Position numbers and translations under genes: made by a program
Notes under the pieces: model-generated
What the model saw: only the letters and a program-made list of their open reading frames with translations
Told to the model about the DNA's origin: nothing
Database searches by the model: none
IMG/VR virus record: IMGVR_UViG_3300017963_000197
Coordinates: 109,052-173,051 of that record
DNA: 64,000 nt
Reading direction: 5' to 3' (one strand)
Origin: a virus
In this document: one piece after another, positions 19,697 to 64,000 of the stretch
Layout of the letters: the number at the start of each line of letters is the position of its first letter
Numbering within the stretch: position 1 is the stretch's first letter

Positions 19697-20527
19697 ATGG
19701 GCGAGTACCGCTGGAAACAAAAAGGCTCCGAGGTCGTAAAGCTTCAAGACGCTCTCATAGCCAAAGGGTATTCTTTACCCAAGTACGGGGCCGACGGAGA
19801 CCTGGGTAAAGAGACGTGGAGTAAGGTTGAAGCCTACGCCAAAGTAGACCAGTTCCCGACGAACAAACCGTTACCGTTAGAGGTGACGGACGAGATACTG
19901 GGCATCAAGAGTGAGCCGCCCGGAGATTTCGACTACCCCGAAGGCTATGTCAGAGTGGACGGGGACCCCAACGATAACCACGGGACACGCTCGTGGACTC
20001 AAATCAACACCATCATGATCCACCAGACGGGCGTCTGGATGACCGACACCCCAGAGCGTTTCAAGACATTGAATGCTCACGTTGGCATCCTGAAGAACCA
20101 CGAAACACCTATCGTTCAGACGCAGCCCCTGACAGCCTACTGCTACCACGGGAATGAAGCCAACAAGTTCACCATCGGCATCGAGATCAATGGAGCCTTC
20201 CCCGGACTCATAAAGCGCTACGACTCAGAAAAACATTCAGCCGAAGGTCCGTCAGCCGGTCAGATCGAATCGACCCGTAGGTGCCTCCAATGGCTCATGG
20301 ACGAAATCGAGGCCCATGGCGGTAAGATTCAACACATCATACCGCACCGGGTTTCCAACGACACTCGAAGAGGAGATCCCGGAGAGGTTGCCTGGAAGGC
20401 TATCGGTGTTTGGGCGCAACAGGAGTTGGGTCTAACTGATATGGGGCCGGGATGGACGATTGGAGATGGGACTCCGATCCCGTACGAATGGGACGGCCGA
20501 CCCGTCTACAAGAAGTACAAGTACTAG
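19697..20527 (+). CDS. Endolysin: N-acetylmuramoyl-L-alanine amidase with peptidoglycan-binding domain
   Basis: 276 residues from the ATG at 19697, 6 nt after AGGAGG. Residues 8-50 form a peptidoglycan-binding repeat (GSEVVKLQDALIAKGY, YGADGDLGKETW). Residues about 100-240 match amidase_2: a zinc-binding histidine in IMIHQTGVW (H109), the conserved GIEINGAF (161-168), a second histidine in IIPHRVSN (H217) and DPGEVAWK (D227). The enzyme cleaves the amide between muramic acid and the stem peptide. There is no signal peptide, so export would need a holin; several tiny membrane proteins in the window are candidates but none adjoins it. Confidence 0.92.
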   Translation: MGEYRWKQKGSEVVKLQDALIAKGYSLPKYGADGDLGKETWSKVEAYAKVDQFPTNKPLPLEVTDEILGIKSEPPGDFDYPEGYVRVDGDPNDNHGTRSWTQINTIMIHQTGVWMTDTPERFKTLNAHVGILKNHETPIVQTQPLTAYCYHGNEANKFTIGIEINGAFPGLIKRYDSEKHSAEGPSAGQIESTRRCLQWLMDEIEAHGGKIQHIIPHRVSNDTRRGDPGEVAWKAIGVWAQQELGLTDMGPGWTIGDGTPIPYEWDGRPVYKKYKY

Positions 20528-20718
20528 ACTTCTTCCCACCCCTTCTTGAGACACGTTCTCTTATGCAGAACATGAAGCTCCTCACGCGGGATCTTCATGT
20601 CAAGGAGGGCTAACATCAACGCTGTGCTCAGTTCTTCTTTCGACTGACAGGCGTTGAATAAGCGTTCGAGGCCGTCGTACCGGTCCCGGTCAGATGGTTG
20701 ATAGTCGTCTCCATACAT
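20524..20718 (-). CDS. Hypothetical acidic protein
   Basis: 64 residues, convergent with the endolysin (overlapping stops). GGTGTAGT lies 8 nt before the ATG. Helical; C-terminal cysteine in a KRTCLKKGWEEV tail. Function unknown. Confidence 0.55.
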   Translation of the reverse strand: MYGDDYQPSDRDRYDGLERLFNACQSKEELSTALMLALLDMKIPREELHVLHKRTCLKKGWEEV

Positions 20719-20746: not shown

Positions 20747-20874
20747 AGCCGGTGTCCGCCAAAAACCTCCTGGCAAACCGGCGACCCAGGAGCGAAAGGA
20801 CAGCATGTGAGGTAAAAGAGGTAGCACACGATACCCGAGGCCCCCTCACACGCTAACGCCTTGACGGAAACGCC
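20747..20874 (-). ncRNA. Conserved leader element, copy A
   Basis: On the minus strand this 128-nt stretch aligns with 22896-23017: both open with CGTTTCCG, share GGGCCTC, then a hairpin, then GGCGGACACCGG. The hairpin stem is CTCCTGG/CCAGGAG (20767-20792) here. Its loop contains GCCGGT, complementary to ACCGGC downstream, allowing a pseudoknot. It lies between the collagen-like gene and 20524-20718. Confidence 0.5.
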
Positions 20875-20914
20875 TTTTACTTAGCCGGGCCTCTTCGCAC
20901 GAAGCACAAAGATA

Positions 20915-21667
20915 CTAACCGTTCGCCTTCACGTCAACAGCGACCTTGCTCAACTTTATGGTCGCCGTACAGAACGGCTCTTTTGCGTCAAGTTTCAACT
21001 CGACGACCTCCACACCCGACATCTTTTCGCCATCCGGTCCATACACTTCCGCGTCTACTGCCCGCCCAGTGGGACAAACAACTCGATATGATTGGGTCTT
21101 TTCTGACACACCCATAACCTCCTTGAAAAGCAAATTGGGGTCTCCCGGCTCGATCTCCTCCTCAGGCTCGTTGGGGTCAGGCCATACCTGTTCCCCGTGA
21201 AGAGTCAGAACGCACCGCAGTTGTTTCAGAACCTTATCGACTCTCTCGTCTTCCAAGGATAGGAGGGCAACCATCGTGCAGAACCCGTAGTCCACGTACC
21301 CCTGGCTCTGCTCGTATTCATACTCTTTGCCTCTGAGAGCGAATCGTACCGGAGGTAACGTGGAGACCCCTACCGGACCGGACCAACTGGTTGGCCCGGT
21401 AGGCCCTACCGGTCCCGTGGGTCCCGTCGAGCCAGTTGCTCCGTCGAAGCCTCGTTCAAAGGAGACCGAGACTCCCGTATCTCCCCCCTCTTCTTCCACG
21501 GTCTGGATCGTCTCTAGAATATCGTTAACTCTCTCCCTAAGCTCTTCTTCGAGGGTCGGCTCGCTAAAGACGGTGTCATCGGGAACTTCTTCTAGCGGCT
21601 CCATCCGCACAAGATCCCGCAAACGATCCAGGGGAGTGTCTTCGTTATTGTCTTCGGGCGGGGGCAT
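20915..21667 (-). CDS. Acidic protein with short collagen-like repeat
   Basis: 250 residues. An acidic helical N-terminus (residues 1-60) leads to Gly-X-Y repeats (GSTGPTGPVGPTGPT, about 77-92). A C-terminal alpha/beta domain follows (EYEYEQSQGYVDYGFCTMV onward). It may be a virion or decoration protein. Its ATG is 8 nt after GGTGTAGG in a divergent promoter region. Confidence 0.68.
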   Translation of the reverse strand: MPPPEDNNEDTPLDRLRDLVRMEPLEEVPDDTVFSEPTLEEELRERVNDILETIQTVEEEGGDTGVSVSFERGFDGATGSTGPTGPVGPTGPTSWSGPVGVSTLPPVRFALRGKEYEYEQSQGYVDYGFCTMVALLSLEDERVDKVLKQLRCVLTLHGEQVWPDPNEPEEEIEPGDPNLLFKEVMGVSEKTQSYRVVCPTGRAVDAEVYGPDGEKMSGVEVVELKLDAKEPFCTATIKLSKVAVDVKANG

Positions 21668-21710
21668 TTGAGTAACCTACACCAAAAGTAGTTTCGGTGT
21701 ACTTTAGAGC
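21668..21710. promoter_or_regulatory. Divergent leaderless-type promoters
   Basis: The minus strand has GGTGTAGG with 8 nt to the ATG of 20915-21667. The plus strand has GGTGTACT (21696-21703) with 7 nt to the ATG at 21711. Neither has room for a ribosome binding site. Confidence 0.55.
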
Positions 21711-21941
21711 ATGGGCCGTCCAAGAGCTAACGAAATGGTTGAACTCCGAAAACCGTCATCGCTCTTCCCTGCCGACACCAGATGGAAAGTAACGGCCCGG
21801 TATACCGTACAAGTCAGCCCGAGAAAGAATCTCGATTGCGTCCGCGTCCACGGTTACTTCGGCAACGGGTACACACTGCACCTGAGCGAGGCAGAGTTCA
21901 AGCGCCTATTCAAGAAAGAACATGCACGTTCTAAAAGGTAA
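21711..21941 (+). CDS. Hypothetical basic protein
   Basis: 76 residues, leaderless-type start. Beta-rich centre (RWKVTARYTVQVSPRKN) and a basic C-terminus. Overlaps the DUF1653 gene by 20 nt. Confidence 0.6.
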   Translation: MGRPRANEMVELRKPSSLFPADTRWKVTARYTVQVSPRKNLDCVRVHGYFGNGYTLHLSEAEFKRLFKKEHARSKR

Positions 21942-22212
21942 ATACCGGCACTTCAAAGGTGGAGAGTACCTTGTTATCGGGGAAGCCCGACACTCTGAGA
22001 CGGGCGAAGACCTCGTAATCTACTGCGAGACCCACGGCCAGGAACGGACATGGGCCAGACCCAAACACATGTTCTTTGAGAAAGTCGAATTTGACACTCC
22101 CAACGGCCGAGCACGGCAACAACGATTCGTCTACGTTGGGGACGATATGAGAAAAGAGTACGACTTCGAGAACATGGAAGGCGAGGCGAACCCATTCGCA
22201 AGGAAGCGTTAG
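21922..22212 (+). CDS. DUF1653-family protein
   Basis: 96 residues. GKYRHFKGGEYLVIGEARHSETGED and VIYCETHG, then WARPKHMFFEKVEF follow the DUF1653 pattern (GxYxHFKGxxYxVxxxAxHSET). This is a small beta-barrel protein of unknown role found in bacteria and phages. Confidence 0.85.
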   Translation: MHVLKGKYRHFKGGEYLVIGEARHSETGEDLVIYCETHGQERTWARPKHMFFEKVEFDTPNGRARQQRFVYVGDDMRKEYDFENMEGEANPFARKR

Positions 22213-22238
22213 GAACCTTTTAATGGCCCCCCAAGGGT

Positions 22239-22454
22239 ATGGTGTATTCCTACGACCGGCGCGTAGGCTTCTTCCCTCCCCCACGAGACGTACGGGAGTG
22301 GTGGAGAAAACTCCCTCGACGCCTTCAAAGAACCGTGGTCCGGGAACTACGGCTTAGCTCCCACGACATGGATGACTGGGACGAGGTGGACTGGGAGACC
22401 CTCACGGATTATTACACCCGCACGGAAGTAGGAACTCGCGGCCGACAACGCTAA
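22239..22454 (+). CDS. Small protein with N-terminal YSYDRR motif
   Basis: 71 residues beginning MVYSYDRR. The remainder is helical, then acidic (DMDDWDEVDWETL). It starts after TTTTAATGG and a 13-nt spacer ending GGGT, a context shared with 38075 and 39235. Function unknown. Confidence 0.62.
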   Translation: MVYSYDRRVGFFPPPRDVREWWRKLPRRLQRTVVRELRLSSHDMDDWDEVDWETLTDYYTRTEVGTRGRQR

Positions 22455-22888
22455 CTGTCCTTGAGACAGTCGTACAGAGTTATCTGCACCGCTGGGACTT
22501 CAATCCCACGGATGAAATTCAGACAGTTGCCGAAGTTGTTAGCGTCGGTCGTATTTGTATAAGGGTAGTGGTTCTTAAACCACTCCCGCACCATGCTATG
22601 GTCCACGATCAAACTCGTGGCTTCGAAAAAAGCAACGAGAAGCCCGTTGAGCCTCACGAACTCGAACTCGACCATAATGGCAGTCTTGGACTTCCGAAGG
22701 CTTAGCTGCCCGACCTGGATGAAGAAACCAGGAAGTTTCGCCTCTTCCCACTCGACGTACCCCTGTCTCTTATTCTCTTGCCACAGAAGATGCCGCTCGC
22801 ACCTCGTGGCCTCCACGAAATAGACAACGTCGTCGAGCACAGAAGTGTCAACATCGACCAGCGATACTGTAACGTTGTCTACAGGCAT
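22451..22888 (-). CDS. Hypothetical protein
   Basis: 145 residues from the ATG at 22888. A start at 22951 would translate the conserved leader element, so it is less likely. Alpha/beta protein with a beta-rich first half (VTVSLVDVDTSVLDDVVYFV). Convergent with 22239-22454. Confidence 0.6.
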   Translation of the reverse strand: MPVDNVTVSLVDVDTSVLDDVVYFVEATRCERHLLWQENKRQGYVEWEEAKLPGFFIQVGQLSLRKSKTAIMVEFEFVRLNGLLVAFFEATSLIVDHSMVREWFKNHYPYTNTTDANNFGNCLNFIRGIEVPAVQITLYDCLKDS

Positions 22889-22895
22889 TGATTTA

Positions 22896-23017
22896 CCGGT
22901 GTCCGCCAATTGCCCTGGCAGACCGGCGATCCAGGGTTGAGGTTTGTACACGGTGTCACAAACAGGGGGTGACTAACCCTTGAGGCCCACCGGTACGAAC
23001 GCATCAGCGGAAACGTC
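22896..23017 (-). ncRNA. Conserved leader element, copy B
   Basis: Related to 20747-20874. The hairpin here is CCCTGG/CCAGGG (22913-22936), so the outermost pair changes from U-A to C-G while pairing is kept. The loop again contains GCCGGT with ACCGG downstream. It ends 8 nt before the ATG of 22451-22888 and starts below a divergent promoter, so it is the 5' leader of that mRNA. Confidence 0.5.
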
Positions 23018-23040
23018 AAATCGCACGGCCTCGTCAATAT

Positions 23041-23095
23041 ATTACACCGCTTGGCGGAATAGGCAATTAGGAGTATCCTCGCTGAGCGGTGTAAT
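23041..23095. promoter_or_regulatory. Perfectly symmetric divergent promoter pair
   Basis: ATTACACCGC (23041-23050) and GCGGTGTAAT (23086-23095) are perfect inverted copies, each containing the TGTAAT promoter element. The right one is 8 nt from the ATG at 23104. The left one reads into the conserved leader and the 22451 gene. Confidence 0.6.
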
Positions 23096-33749: not shown

Positions 33750-33772
33750 ACTTTTGATAAGCCAGTAGGGGT

Positions 33773-34249
33773 ATGAACCCCCGAAAAGCATTTGTGAACA
33801 GTCTGCTAAAAGAAGCCGCCCGGCGAAAGACCGCCAGCACCCCGGCAGAGGACATCGGAGAGGCGATCAGCCTACTCGATTACTTACCGAACGCGGCGGC
33901 GGCTTGGCACGAGGCCCACGCGAAAAACCGAGAACTCGCCAAGGCGAACGCCAAGAAGGTTCGACAAGCCGTTGACCTTCTCAGCAATGTTCTCTCTTCC
34001 ATGCCAAAGTCCATGCAATATATGGTCGTCGGCCTCGACAACAAGACCTATACCTTCAAGGACGTGGATGACCTCATCGAGGAACTGAAATCCCGTGGCA
34101 TCCGTCATACAGGGTTTCAGGAGGGGAGGCACCTCAGGCCGGAACTGCAAGGGCAGCCGAAGTTCGACAAGCTTCTAGGTCCCATGCATGGCGGTGGTGG
34201 TAAGGTTCGATACGAGACCCAGAAAGTCTACGACGTGCTGAGTCGCTGA
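33773..34249 (+). CDS. Helical protein with N-terminal NPRKAF tag
   Basis: 158 residues beginning MNPRKAFVNSLLKEAARRKTAS. This is an amphipathic N-terminus of the shared class and looks like a capsid-targeting peptide. A helical body and a basic C-terminal region follow. Confidence 0.68.
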   Translation: MNPRKAFVNSLLKEAARRKTASTPAEDIGEAISLLDYLPNAAAAWHEAHAKNRELAKANAKKVRQAVDLLSNVLSSMPKSMQYMVVGLDNKTYTFKDVDDLIEELKSRGIRHTGFQEGRHLRPELQGQPKFDKLLGPMHGGGGKVRYETQKVYDVLSR

Positions 34250-34267
34250 TCTGGTGTAACCCAAGGC

Positions 34268-34708
34268 ATGACGACAGAAGAAGAAACACCCACGATAGCC
34301 TGTGATTTCGACGGGGTCCTCAATTCTTACACTTCGGGATGGACCGGGGACACGCTACCCGACCCACCTGTGCCGGGGGCCATCGAGTGGCTCGAAGACG
34401 TCACCAACGAGTGTGACGTTATCATCCACACAGCGCGGATCAAGGAAAGCCAGCCGGGGCAGACAGAACTAATCAAGGCGTGGTTGTTAGAACACGGGTT
34501 GTCTCCGGAAGCCCTGGCCCGGCTCTCGTTCGAGGGTAAGGTTACGGCTACCATCTACCTGGACGACCGGGGTGTTAGATTCACCGGGGAAAACTTCCCG
34601 ACGGCCGAAGAAGTCAAGAACCACAAGGCGTGGAATAAACAAGGGAAGCGGGCCAAGGAAATCAAGAAGGCGTGGGACGACCTGGACGACCGCTGGAAGT
34701 GCAGATGA
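34268..34708 (+). CDS. HAD-superfamily phosphatase-like protein
   Basis: 146 residues. ACDFDGVLNSY gives HAD motif I with aspartates at 13 and 15. VIIHTARI supplies motif II, and the IYLDDRGVRFTG segment the late acidic motif with a substrate loop. It belongs to the compact HAD family common in phages; the substrate is unknown. GGTGTAAC with 7 nt spacing precedes the ATG. Confidence 0.8.
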   Translation: MTTEEETPTIACDFDGVLNSYTSGWTGDTLPDPPVPGAIEWLEDVTNECDVIIHTARIKESQPGQTELIKAWLLEHGLSPEALARLSFEGKVTATIYLDDRGVRFTGENFPTAEEVKNHKAWNKQGKRAKEIKKAWDDLDDRWKCR

Positions 34709-34881
34709 CAATACCTAACAACTTACGTCAGATGACCGAAGACCAGTTGTGGCAAAGGCTCAAGGACATCGAAGCCGAACAAGGGTATATCCGGGAGGAA
34801 ATCCGGAGACGGCTCGACGAACAGCACCCAATTCTATCCCCGGCCATACGGGAAGCGACCCGCAAAGCTCTCTCTACTTAA
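34705..34881 (+). CDS. Tiny helical protein
   Basis: 58 residues, coupled by ATGA. MTEDQLWQRLKDIEAEQGYI is a charged helix. Function unknown. Confidence 0.58.
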   Translation: MTIPNNLRQMTEDQLWQRLKDIEAEQGYIREEIRRRLDEQHPILSPAIREATRKALST

Positions 34882-34934
34882 AGCCATAAACGGTGTAGCC
34901 TGTACCCGGACCCAAAATATTTCCGGGTAAGCCG

Positions 34935-35453
34935 ATGGCAGAAAAGTTCCTAGATGTGGTAGGCGCGGTAGGAGACGACTGGTCCGACCGGGAGCCGGAC
35001 GCCCTGTGTCGTTGCGACCACGAGCTACAAGAGCACGGGCCTTACGGAGGCGCGTGTACGCGATGCCCGTGCGAGGCGTTTGGAACCATTGGGCCGATTC
35101 CGAAGTATATAAGGGAGATGACCATAGAGACGCTGGGAGACCCCCTCACGATAAAGGAGGCGGACGAGACCGGCGACAAACTGGGCTACTTCGACGAACG
35201 GAACGGTGAGATACGGGTAAACAAGAACCAGCCTTGGGTCGGCAAAAACATCGTCCTGCTACATGAATTGTTACACGTGGTAGATATCATGCTCGTGCAG
35301 AGCGGAGCCAAAAAGAGACGAATGAACCACGGGGAATTACACAACCTCGCGCCAAACCTGTTGGCCGTCCTGGTCGCCGCTGGCCTGTGGAAGCTCGATG
35401 TCACCATGGAAGAGGTCACGGAGTTCTGGGAAGCCCAGGAGCCAGAGGAATGA
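34935..35453 (+). CDS. HEXXH zinc metallopeptidase-like protein
   Basis: 172 residues. The N-terminal cysteine cluster (CRCDHE, CTRCPCE; 25-46) is a probable zinc finger. VLLHELLHVVD (107-117) contains the HEXXH catalytic motif, and the downstream NHGELHN could provide a third ligand. It is small for a peptidase but typical of phage HEXXH proteins. The substrate is unknown. Confidence 0.72.
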   Translation: MAEKFLDVVGAVGDDWSDREPDALCRCDHELQEHGPYGGACTRCPCEAFGTIGPIPKYIREMTIETLGDPLTIKEADETGDKLGYFDERNGEIRVNKNQPWVGKNIVLLHELLHVVDIMLVQSGAKKRRMNHGELHNLAPNLLAVLVAAGLWKLDVTMEEVTEFWEAQEPEE

Positions 35454-35791
35454 GCCTACCGCGTGGACGAGTCATCGTAGTTGATAAAAAGCCCTACGAG
35501 TGGTTGGTGAAGCCACTGTCGAAGGACCGGTACGGCCTCAAGTGGACAGCGCCCTCGCTGTCACTGACCATAAAGCCGGAAGGCGAGAAGGTGGTCCAGT
35601 ACCTGTGTCGCTCGAAACACTGGACCGACGCGCACGAGGAGTGTTACTTCGACGACCCGTCGCTCCACGCGGTGGAGCCACACAAGGTAGCCTTTGGCCC
35701 AACGGAGGTTAAAGAGGTTATCCAGGGGAACATGGAGTTAGAAGATTGGACCGTGGCTCTTTCCGCAAAACAACGGAAGTCAAAAAGTTGA
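35450..35791 (+). CDS. Hypothetical protein
   Basis: 113 residues, ATGA coupling to the peptidase gene. Beta-rich; ends in a lysine-rich tail. No tag. Confidence 0.6.
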   Translation: MSLPRGRVIVVDKKPYEWLVKPLSKDRYGLKWTAPSLSLTIKPEGEKVVQYLCRSKHWTDAHEECYFDDPSLHAVEPHKVAFGPTEVKEVIQGNMELEDWTVALSAKQRKSKS

Positions 35792-63693: not shown

Positions 63694-63834
63694 ATGCTTC
63701 CCTGTGACCACGGCCGGTGTGAGGTATGCGAGAAGGTCTACTGGATTCCAGCCGGGGTCGGGCCAAGGTTTTGCTCCTCTGGGTGTTGGGAGTACATCGG
63801 TACTCCGGAAAGGCAGACTCTAACGCGGTTTTGA
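63694..63834 (+). CDS. Tiny treble-clef zinc protein
   Basis: 46 residues. CEVCEKVYWIP and FCSSGCWEY are the island's zinc-unit ligands. Its stop overlaps a TTG start (TTGA). Confidence 0.58.
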   Translation: MLPCDHGRCEVCEKVYWIPAGVGPRFCSSGCWEYIGTPERQTLTRF

Positions 63835-64000
63835 AGGTTTCGATTGTCGTCCCACTACCTCTCGAACATGAAACTATCTGGGTGAGAATATTCGTCCAGC
63901 ACGAGGGTGTCCAGCTTGGCCGGATCAGCATGGAGCCGACTGCGGGCGGCCACGCCGTCAACAGCGTCAAGTTCTACAAGAAGTCGGACTACGAGTTCGA
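63831..64000 (+). CDS. Hypothetical protein, C-terminus beyond window
   Basis: The frame from a TTG overlapping the previous stop stays open for 56 codons to the window edge. Beta-rich start (KVSIVVPLPLEHETIWVRIFV). Confidence 0.5.
   Translation, partial: MKVSIVVPLPLEHETIWVRIFVQHEGVQLGRISMEPTAGGHAVNSVKFYKKSDYEF

Follow-up and report, generated by a model that had tools for sequence, protein, structure and literature searches.

We identified three homologous copies (A, B and C) of a compact RNA element, about 129-146 nt long, in the genomes of two huge tailed phages, and a predicted common fold of five covarying helices is well supported by their comparison. Our favored reading, held with slightly better than even confidence, is that they are copies of one small non-coding RNA gene whose product would most likely be stable, act in trans and be bound by a protein. 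The element appears to be a genuine and apparently undescribed structured RNA family of huge phages; apart from tRNAs, tmRNA and the large ornate RNAs, few structured RNAs of these phages are known to us from a narrow search of the literature. Many genes of huge phages are still unexplained, and a compact five-helix RNA with locked ends offers a well-defined target for experiments: it lends itself to in vitro synthesis, probing and crystallisation, and could serve as bait for a partner.

Three homologous copies in two huge phages

Copies A and B lie on the minus strand of the window, that is, the whole stretch of 64,000 nucleotides analysed here. The window comes from a viral record of 173,051 bases, and 63,797 of the window's bases are identical to a 416,539-base IMG/VR record (G001), a huge tailed phage with a terminase, many tRNAs, a tmRNA, and GroEL-like and ribonucleotide-reductase-like genes recognised by sequence only. 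In IMG/VR, 19 loci have a close terminase and at least 80 a more distant one. Copy C lies in a relative, G005 (IMGVR_UViG_3300033489_000001), a phage of 411,618 bases whose terminase is 79% identical to that of G001.

Several features of these genomes were observed along the way. The exact match between the window and the 416-kb record stops at 63,797, leaving 63798-64000, and positions 63,878-64,000 match the same record 14 kb further on in reversed orientation (G001 186524-186402); an assembly join or an inversion may account for this at the end of the 173-kb record. A 250-aa protein with collagen-like GPT repeats is encoded immediately upstream of copy A (20915-21667, minus strand); such repeats are also found at the ends of the 416-kb record and may have broken its assembly. 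ARAGORN finds 54 tRNA/tmRNA genes in G001, 37 in G005 and 42 in a further relative, G004 (378 kb covered). Those of G001 occupy 64058-94000, with the tmRNA at 88026-88405 (tag ANDNAAPLAIAA) and a GGTGTAATATAG motif 24 nt upstream of it. G001 also encodes (33771-35555, minus strand) a 594-aa protein with an N-terminal match to the PHROG 6386 phage transcription-antiterminator family (E = 9e-6) and, in an unusual combination, an exonuclease match at its C terminus.

The initial annotation, made from the letters of the window, had placed two copies of a conserved leader at 20747-20874 and 22896-23017. The location was right, and both elements prove slightly longer than that (Table 1). The shared blocks it had listed on the minus strand (CGTTTCCG, GGGCCTC, a CCTGG/CCAGG hairpin and (TT)GGCGGACACCGG) do occur in the order given, and the full series in A and B reads GAGGCC, GRCGTTTCC, GGCCTC, CCTGG..TCGCCGGTYTGCCAGG and TTGGCGGACACCGG. 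Taken singly, these blocks are about as frequent in the window as expected by chance, but the ordered set is not.

We searched with three covariance models, built from A and B (R1), from the 3' domain (R2) and from the full fold (R3). In the 416,539-base record, R1 recovers only A and B above noise (165.9 and 149.9 bits, the next best match scoring 11.2). Across 20 related records it gives a new full-length match, copy C (E = 8e-14), so that a search of this kind, which the initial annotation had proposed as a check, does bring out a further homologue. Identities on the registered alignment are 78/134 between A and B, 64/126 between A and C, and 68/119 between B and C, and on this sequence evidence we regard the three as homologous. 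No other convincing copy was found with R2 and R3 in about 83 related records, and pattern scans of IMG/VR and of a genome set of 84,980 species gave chance matches only, including the match of IMGVR_UViG_2838101865 to the first pattern. Weak R1 and R2 matches in other phages (L206-L235) were rejected because the core is absent from the aligned pieces, and a descriptor search for the topology of the P1/P2 pseudoknot alone proved too permissive, with dozens of chance matches per genome. A marginal case is Tunturiibacter phage Tunturi_5 (PP885688.1, 230122-230264, minus strand), which R3 aligns over its full length with E = 0.1. This locus has P2-, P3- and P5-like pairs, TTTGCCAGGAGG and ACCGGC; P1 was not found in it, and an annotated gene runs across it on the opposite strand. 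The match may be due to chance or may represent a distant relative.

The predicted fold and its support

Five helices can be drawn in all three copies. P2 and P3 lie within P5 and form a three-way junction with it; P1 ties the 5' tail into the P2 loop, and P4 ties the 3' tail into the P3 loop. P1 joins the 5' end to the strand just after the 5' arm of P2, and the two helices cross. The 5' strand of P5 is preceded by GRCGUU and followed by GC, and these, with the flanks of the P3 loop, are the conserved unpaired bases. Two parts of this fold had already been noticed in the initial annotation, and both are real: the stem exchange from U-A to C-G affects the outer pair of P3, and the complementarity of the loop GCCGGT to the 3' ACCGG(C/T) is P4. 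Three helices had been missed, namely P1 (GAGGCC/GGCCTC), P2 and the long-range P5.

Table 1. Copies A, B and C, their helices and their surroundings (window positions; paired strands are separated by a slash).
Feature	Position	Strand	Sequence	Remark
Copy A, RNA element, 146 nt	20748..20893	minus		cmsearch R1/R3; alignment with B and C
A, P1	20893-20887 / 20843-20837	minus	GAGGCCC / GGGCCTC	pairing test; covariation against C
A, P2	20854-20844 / 20812-20802	minus	AGCGTGTGAGG / CCTCACATGCT	5' arm abuts P1 3' arm, hence pseudoknot
A, P5, long-range	20868-20860 / 20763-20755	minus	TCCGTCAAG / TTTGGCGGA	
A, P3 hairpin	20792-20786 / 20773-20767	minus	CTCCTGG / CCAGGAG	
A, P4 pseudoknot	20782-20777 / 20753-20748	minus	GCCGGT / ACCGGC	P3 loop / 3' end
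Candidate sigma-70-like promoter upstream of A	20909..20937	minus	TTGACG-17-TATCTT	weak
64-aa ORF, 30 nt downstream of A	20524..20718	minus		GGTGTAGTG motif directly upstream of ATG
Copy B, RNA element, 138 nt	22895..23032	minus		cmsearch R1/R3
B, P1	23032-23027 / 22987-22982	minus	GAGGCC / GGCCTC	
B, P2	22996-22988 / 22955-22946	minus	GTACCGGTG / CACCGTGTAC	one bulged T; crosses P1
B, P5, long-range	23011-23003 / 22910-22902	minus	TCCGCTGAT / ATTGGCGGA	
B, P3 hairpin	22936-22931 / 22918-22913	minus	CCCTGG / CCAGGG	
B, P4 pseudoknot	22927-22922 / 22900-22895	minus	GCCGGT / ACCGGT	P3 loop / 3' end
Phage promoter core adjoining B	23033..23048	minus	GGTGTAATATAT	first G 16 nt upstream of P1
145-aa ORF, PHROG 18096	22451..22888	minus		start 7 nt after B; relatives in many unrelated phages
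C, P1			GTAGGATT / AATCCTAC	
C, P2			CACGAGGTGTG / CGCACTTCGTG	
C, P5			CCACCAAT / ATTGGTGG	

On the registered alignment (A6), standard pairs fill 114 of 115 pair cells (99.1%) and both sides have changed in 18 of 40 pairs, figures that lean toward structure since the alignment was registered by hand, padded with N to hold the structural register, and omits one bulged T of B. None of 500 shuffles reached the observed value on any measure, and sliding the partners by 1-3 columns lowers pairing to 37-49%. The covariation comes from three copies in two phages and thus from few independent events. The arms of P2 have been mostly replaced between copies, with pairing kept in each: a copy's own arms pair with energies of -20.0, -14.6 and -17.9 kcal/mol, whereas arms taken from different copies reach only -7.3 to -10.5. 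This test is independent of the hand alignment, though its windows were chosen knowing the fold. In P5, the best pairing is with the copy's own partner in all three cases, and C shows a matched double change, G to A on one strand and C to U on the other, that turns a G-C pair into A-U. Helices kept by compensatory changes in independent copies are what characterises structured non-coding RNAs in general. The earlier proposal of an RNA-level element with a pseudoknot is strongly supported. Of the two outcomes that it had named as refuting it, a lack of further homologues is countered by copy C, and a shared protein frame by what follows.

An alternative origin of the conservation would be a short shared protein frame, PQPW[IV]AGLPG[QK]L[AV]DTG, which does stay open across the 3' domain of B and C. 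However, an insertion of 2 nt in A breaks the frame while the 14 bases TTGGCGGACACCGG stay identical to those of B, and the differences between B and C fall at codon positions 3, 1, 3, 1, 1, 2 and 3, an even spread (3, 1 and 3 at positions 1, 2 and 3). P1 and P2, moreover, covary outside the frame. We rejected a protein origin, which we regard as extremely improbable, on the broken frame and the codon-position pattern, and the signal is best read at the RNA level, as had been argued initially.

Genomic context and competing readings

The promoters of this phage clade share a GGTGTARTA core that is far commoner than its reversed control and usually stands just before start codons. In the forms GGTGTAATA and GGTGTAGTA, the core is shared genome-wide by G001, G004 and G005 (for example at window position 23044, minus strand); in G005 it comes with CTTGAATT about 20 nt upstream. 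An ATG often follows 3-10 nt after the core, and this short distance suggests leaderless transcripts or very short leaders. One such predicted core adjoins the 5' end of copy B, and it ranks 18 of 832,996 genome positions with a matrix trained without this site. Upstream of A and C we recognised no convincing promoter, the sigma-70-like site before A being at chance level (1 found, 1.4 expected), and no terminator was seen downstream of any of the three copies.

The surroundings of the copies differ. The genes after A and B are unrelated, as had been claimed, and relatives of the 64-aa ORF after A occur in two other phage contigs with no element in front. Copy C sits in an intergenic gap of ~250 nt on the strand opposite to both neighboring genes, with no same-strand gene after it; the corresponding junction of the sister phages G001 and G004 spans no more than tens of bases and retains the helicase promoter-like motif. 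The antisense position of C, with no gene to lead into, favors a stand-alone small RNA, and the absence of its gap from G001 and G004, together with the element-free relatives of the gene after A, favors a free-standing RNA gene that moved or was independently gained and lost. The initial annotation had left the choice between a cis-regulator and a small RNA open, and the context of C tips it toward the latter. Its term "leader" still fits B, which stops 7 nt short of the start codon of the PHROG 18096 gene so that the RNA there is also a 5' leader, but it does not apply literally to the other copies.

It is this position of B that makes a cis-acting leader the most natural competitor. Such a leader, riboswitch-like or protein-sensing, would control translation or read-through of the gene behind it by means of two exclusive 3' states. 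A second 3' fold does exist, a nested 12-bp hairpin of GCCGGUYUGCCA with UUGGYGGACACCGGY, and both it and the set of P3, P4 and P5 are fully paired in all three copies (36/36 cells each). The hairpin competes with P5, and a two-state switch is therefore possible. Yet none of its pairs has changed on both sides, and for these reasons we rejected it as the main 3' fold and kept it as an alternative. The contexts speak against control in cis as well: a riboswitch or cis-leader should always lie 5' of genes of related function, whereas here the genes downstream are unrelated, no same-strand gene follows C, and the gene after A has its own promoter-like motif and relatives without the element. On balance, we consider a cis-acting leader unlikely, if a serious contender.

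In sister phages the genes on either side of C are almost contiguous, and its apparent insertion there could also point to a remnant or non-autonomous part of a mobile element, such as an omega RNA of IS605/TnpB or IscB that has lost its nuclease gene and whose guide would be the sequence after ACCGG. G005 carries eight TnpB-like (PF07282) genes and one RRXRR (IscB-type) gene. But C is not beside a TnpB gene, and matches to TnpB and RRXRR (PF14239) are absent from G001, which holds two of the copies (G004, a relative of G005, likewise has neither kind of gene). As no Rfam match and no shared target-site or end sequence was noticed either, we judge a mobile remnant very unlikely. We think just as little of a self-cleaving or otherwise catalytic RNA. 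Small ribozymes are known in phages, and a compact fold with two nested pseudoknots round a three-way junction and an invariant unpaired core would suit one, but no Rfam 15 ribozyme model matches and the strand order of the helices is unlike that of HDV-like ribozymes.

We thus return to the small non-coding RNA gene. The element would form a three-way junction of P5, P2 and P3 closed at both ends by the pseudoknots P1 and P4. With the 5' and 3' tails paired into the loops of P2 and P3, both ends would be buried, and the RNA should therefore be compact and exonuclease-resistant. The conserved unpaired bases (GRCGUU, GC and the P3 loop flanks) are probably a binding face. From the buried ends and these bases we infer action in trans and a protein partner, as we infer transcription and stability: during infection, a host or phage protein might bind the RNA, which would serve as a decoy or as the RNA component of a small ribonucleoprotein. 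A bolder version, which we put forward as speculative and rather improbable, would place the element in a new class of phage RNAs, small, mobile and exonuclease-proof, that pass between huge phages as free-standing genes. Such an RNA would serve as decoy or scaffold against a factor of host defence or RNA processing, and its topology, with the two ends locked into the loops of the two arms of a three-way junction, would be an undescribed one. Should the RNA indeed counter a host factor, the phage counter-defence toolkit would gain an RNA.

Comparison with known RNAs

Rfam 15 gives no match above gathering threshold in the window, and E-value scans of A, B and C against Rfam gave only off-element, antisense or low-scoring noise. 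One structural analogy is the xrRNA of flaviviruses, in whose 3' UTR a three-way junction has a hairpin loop paired with the strand just 3' of the junction. P4 likewise pairs the loop of a junction hairpin with the strand that follows. This is an analogy and not membership, since xrRNAs belong to the 3' UTR of RNA viruses, have no helix between 5' tail and loop comparable to P1, and show no sequence match through Rfam. HDV-like ribozymes share with the element two crossing helices at the 5' end, but in them the P3 hairpin stands between the 5' strand of P2 and the 3' strand of P1, whereas here these two strands abut and a long loop precedes P2; with no Rfam match in addition, the strand order sets the two apart. 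The omega RNAs of TnpB and IscB are also compact and pseudoknotted, with pairing between the 3' end and a loop, and the mobile-looking position of C recalls them. They differ in having a nuclease gene beside them or encoded in the genome: none is adjacent here, and the families are absent from G001.

Among phage RNAs, the vrRNAs of VIPR are intergenic guide RNAs of ~100 nt, made of 9-16 YNNGG tandem repeats followed by a tail, which in one clade is pseudoknotted (PMC13142463). Our element resembles them in being a phage intergenic RNA of about that size and, for that clade, in its pseudoknotted 3' tail, but by eye the YNNGG repeat tract is absent from A, B and C, and we do not count it among them. 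GOLLD and ROOL are large ornate RNAs of phages and prophages, several hundred nucleotides long (PMC12286853). At 129-146 nt, and with no match to a family model, the element described here does not belong to either, but it shares with them that it is phage-encoded, structured, pseudoknotted and probably stand-alone.
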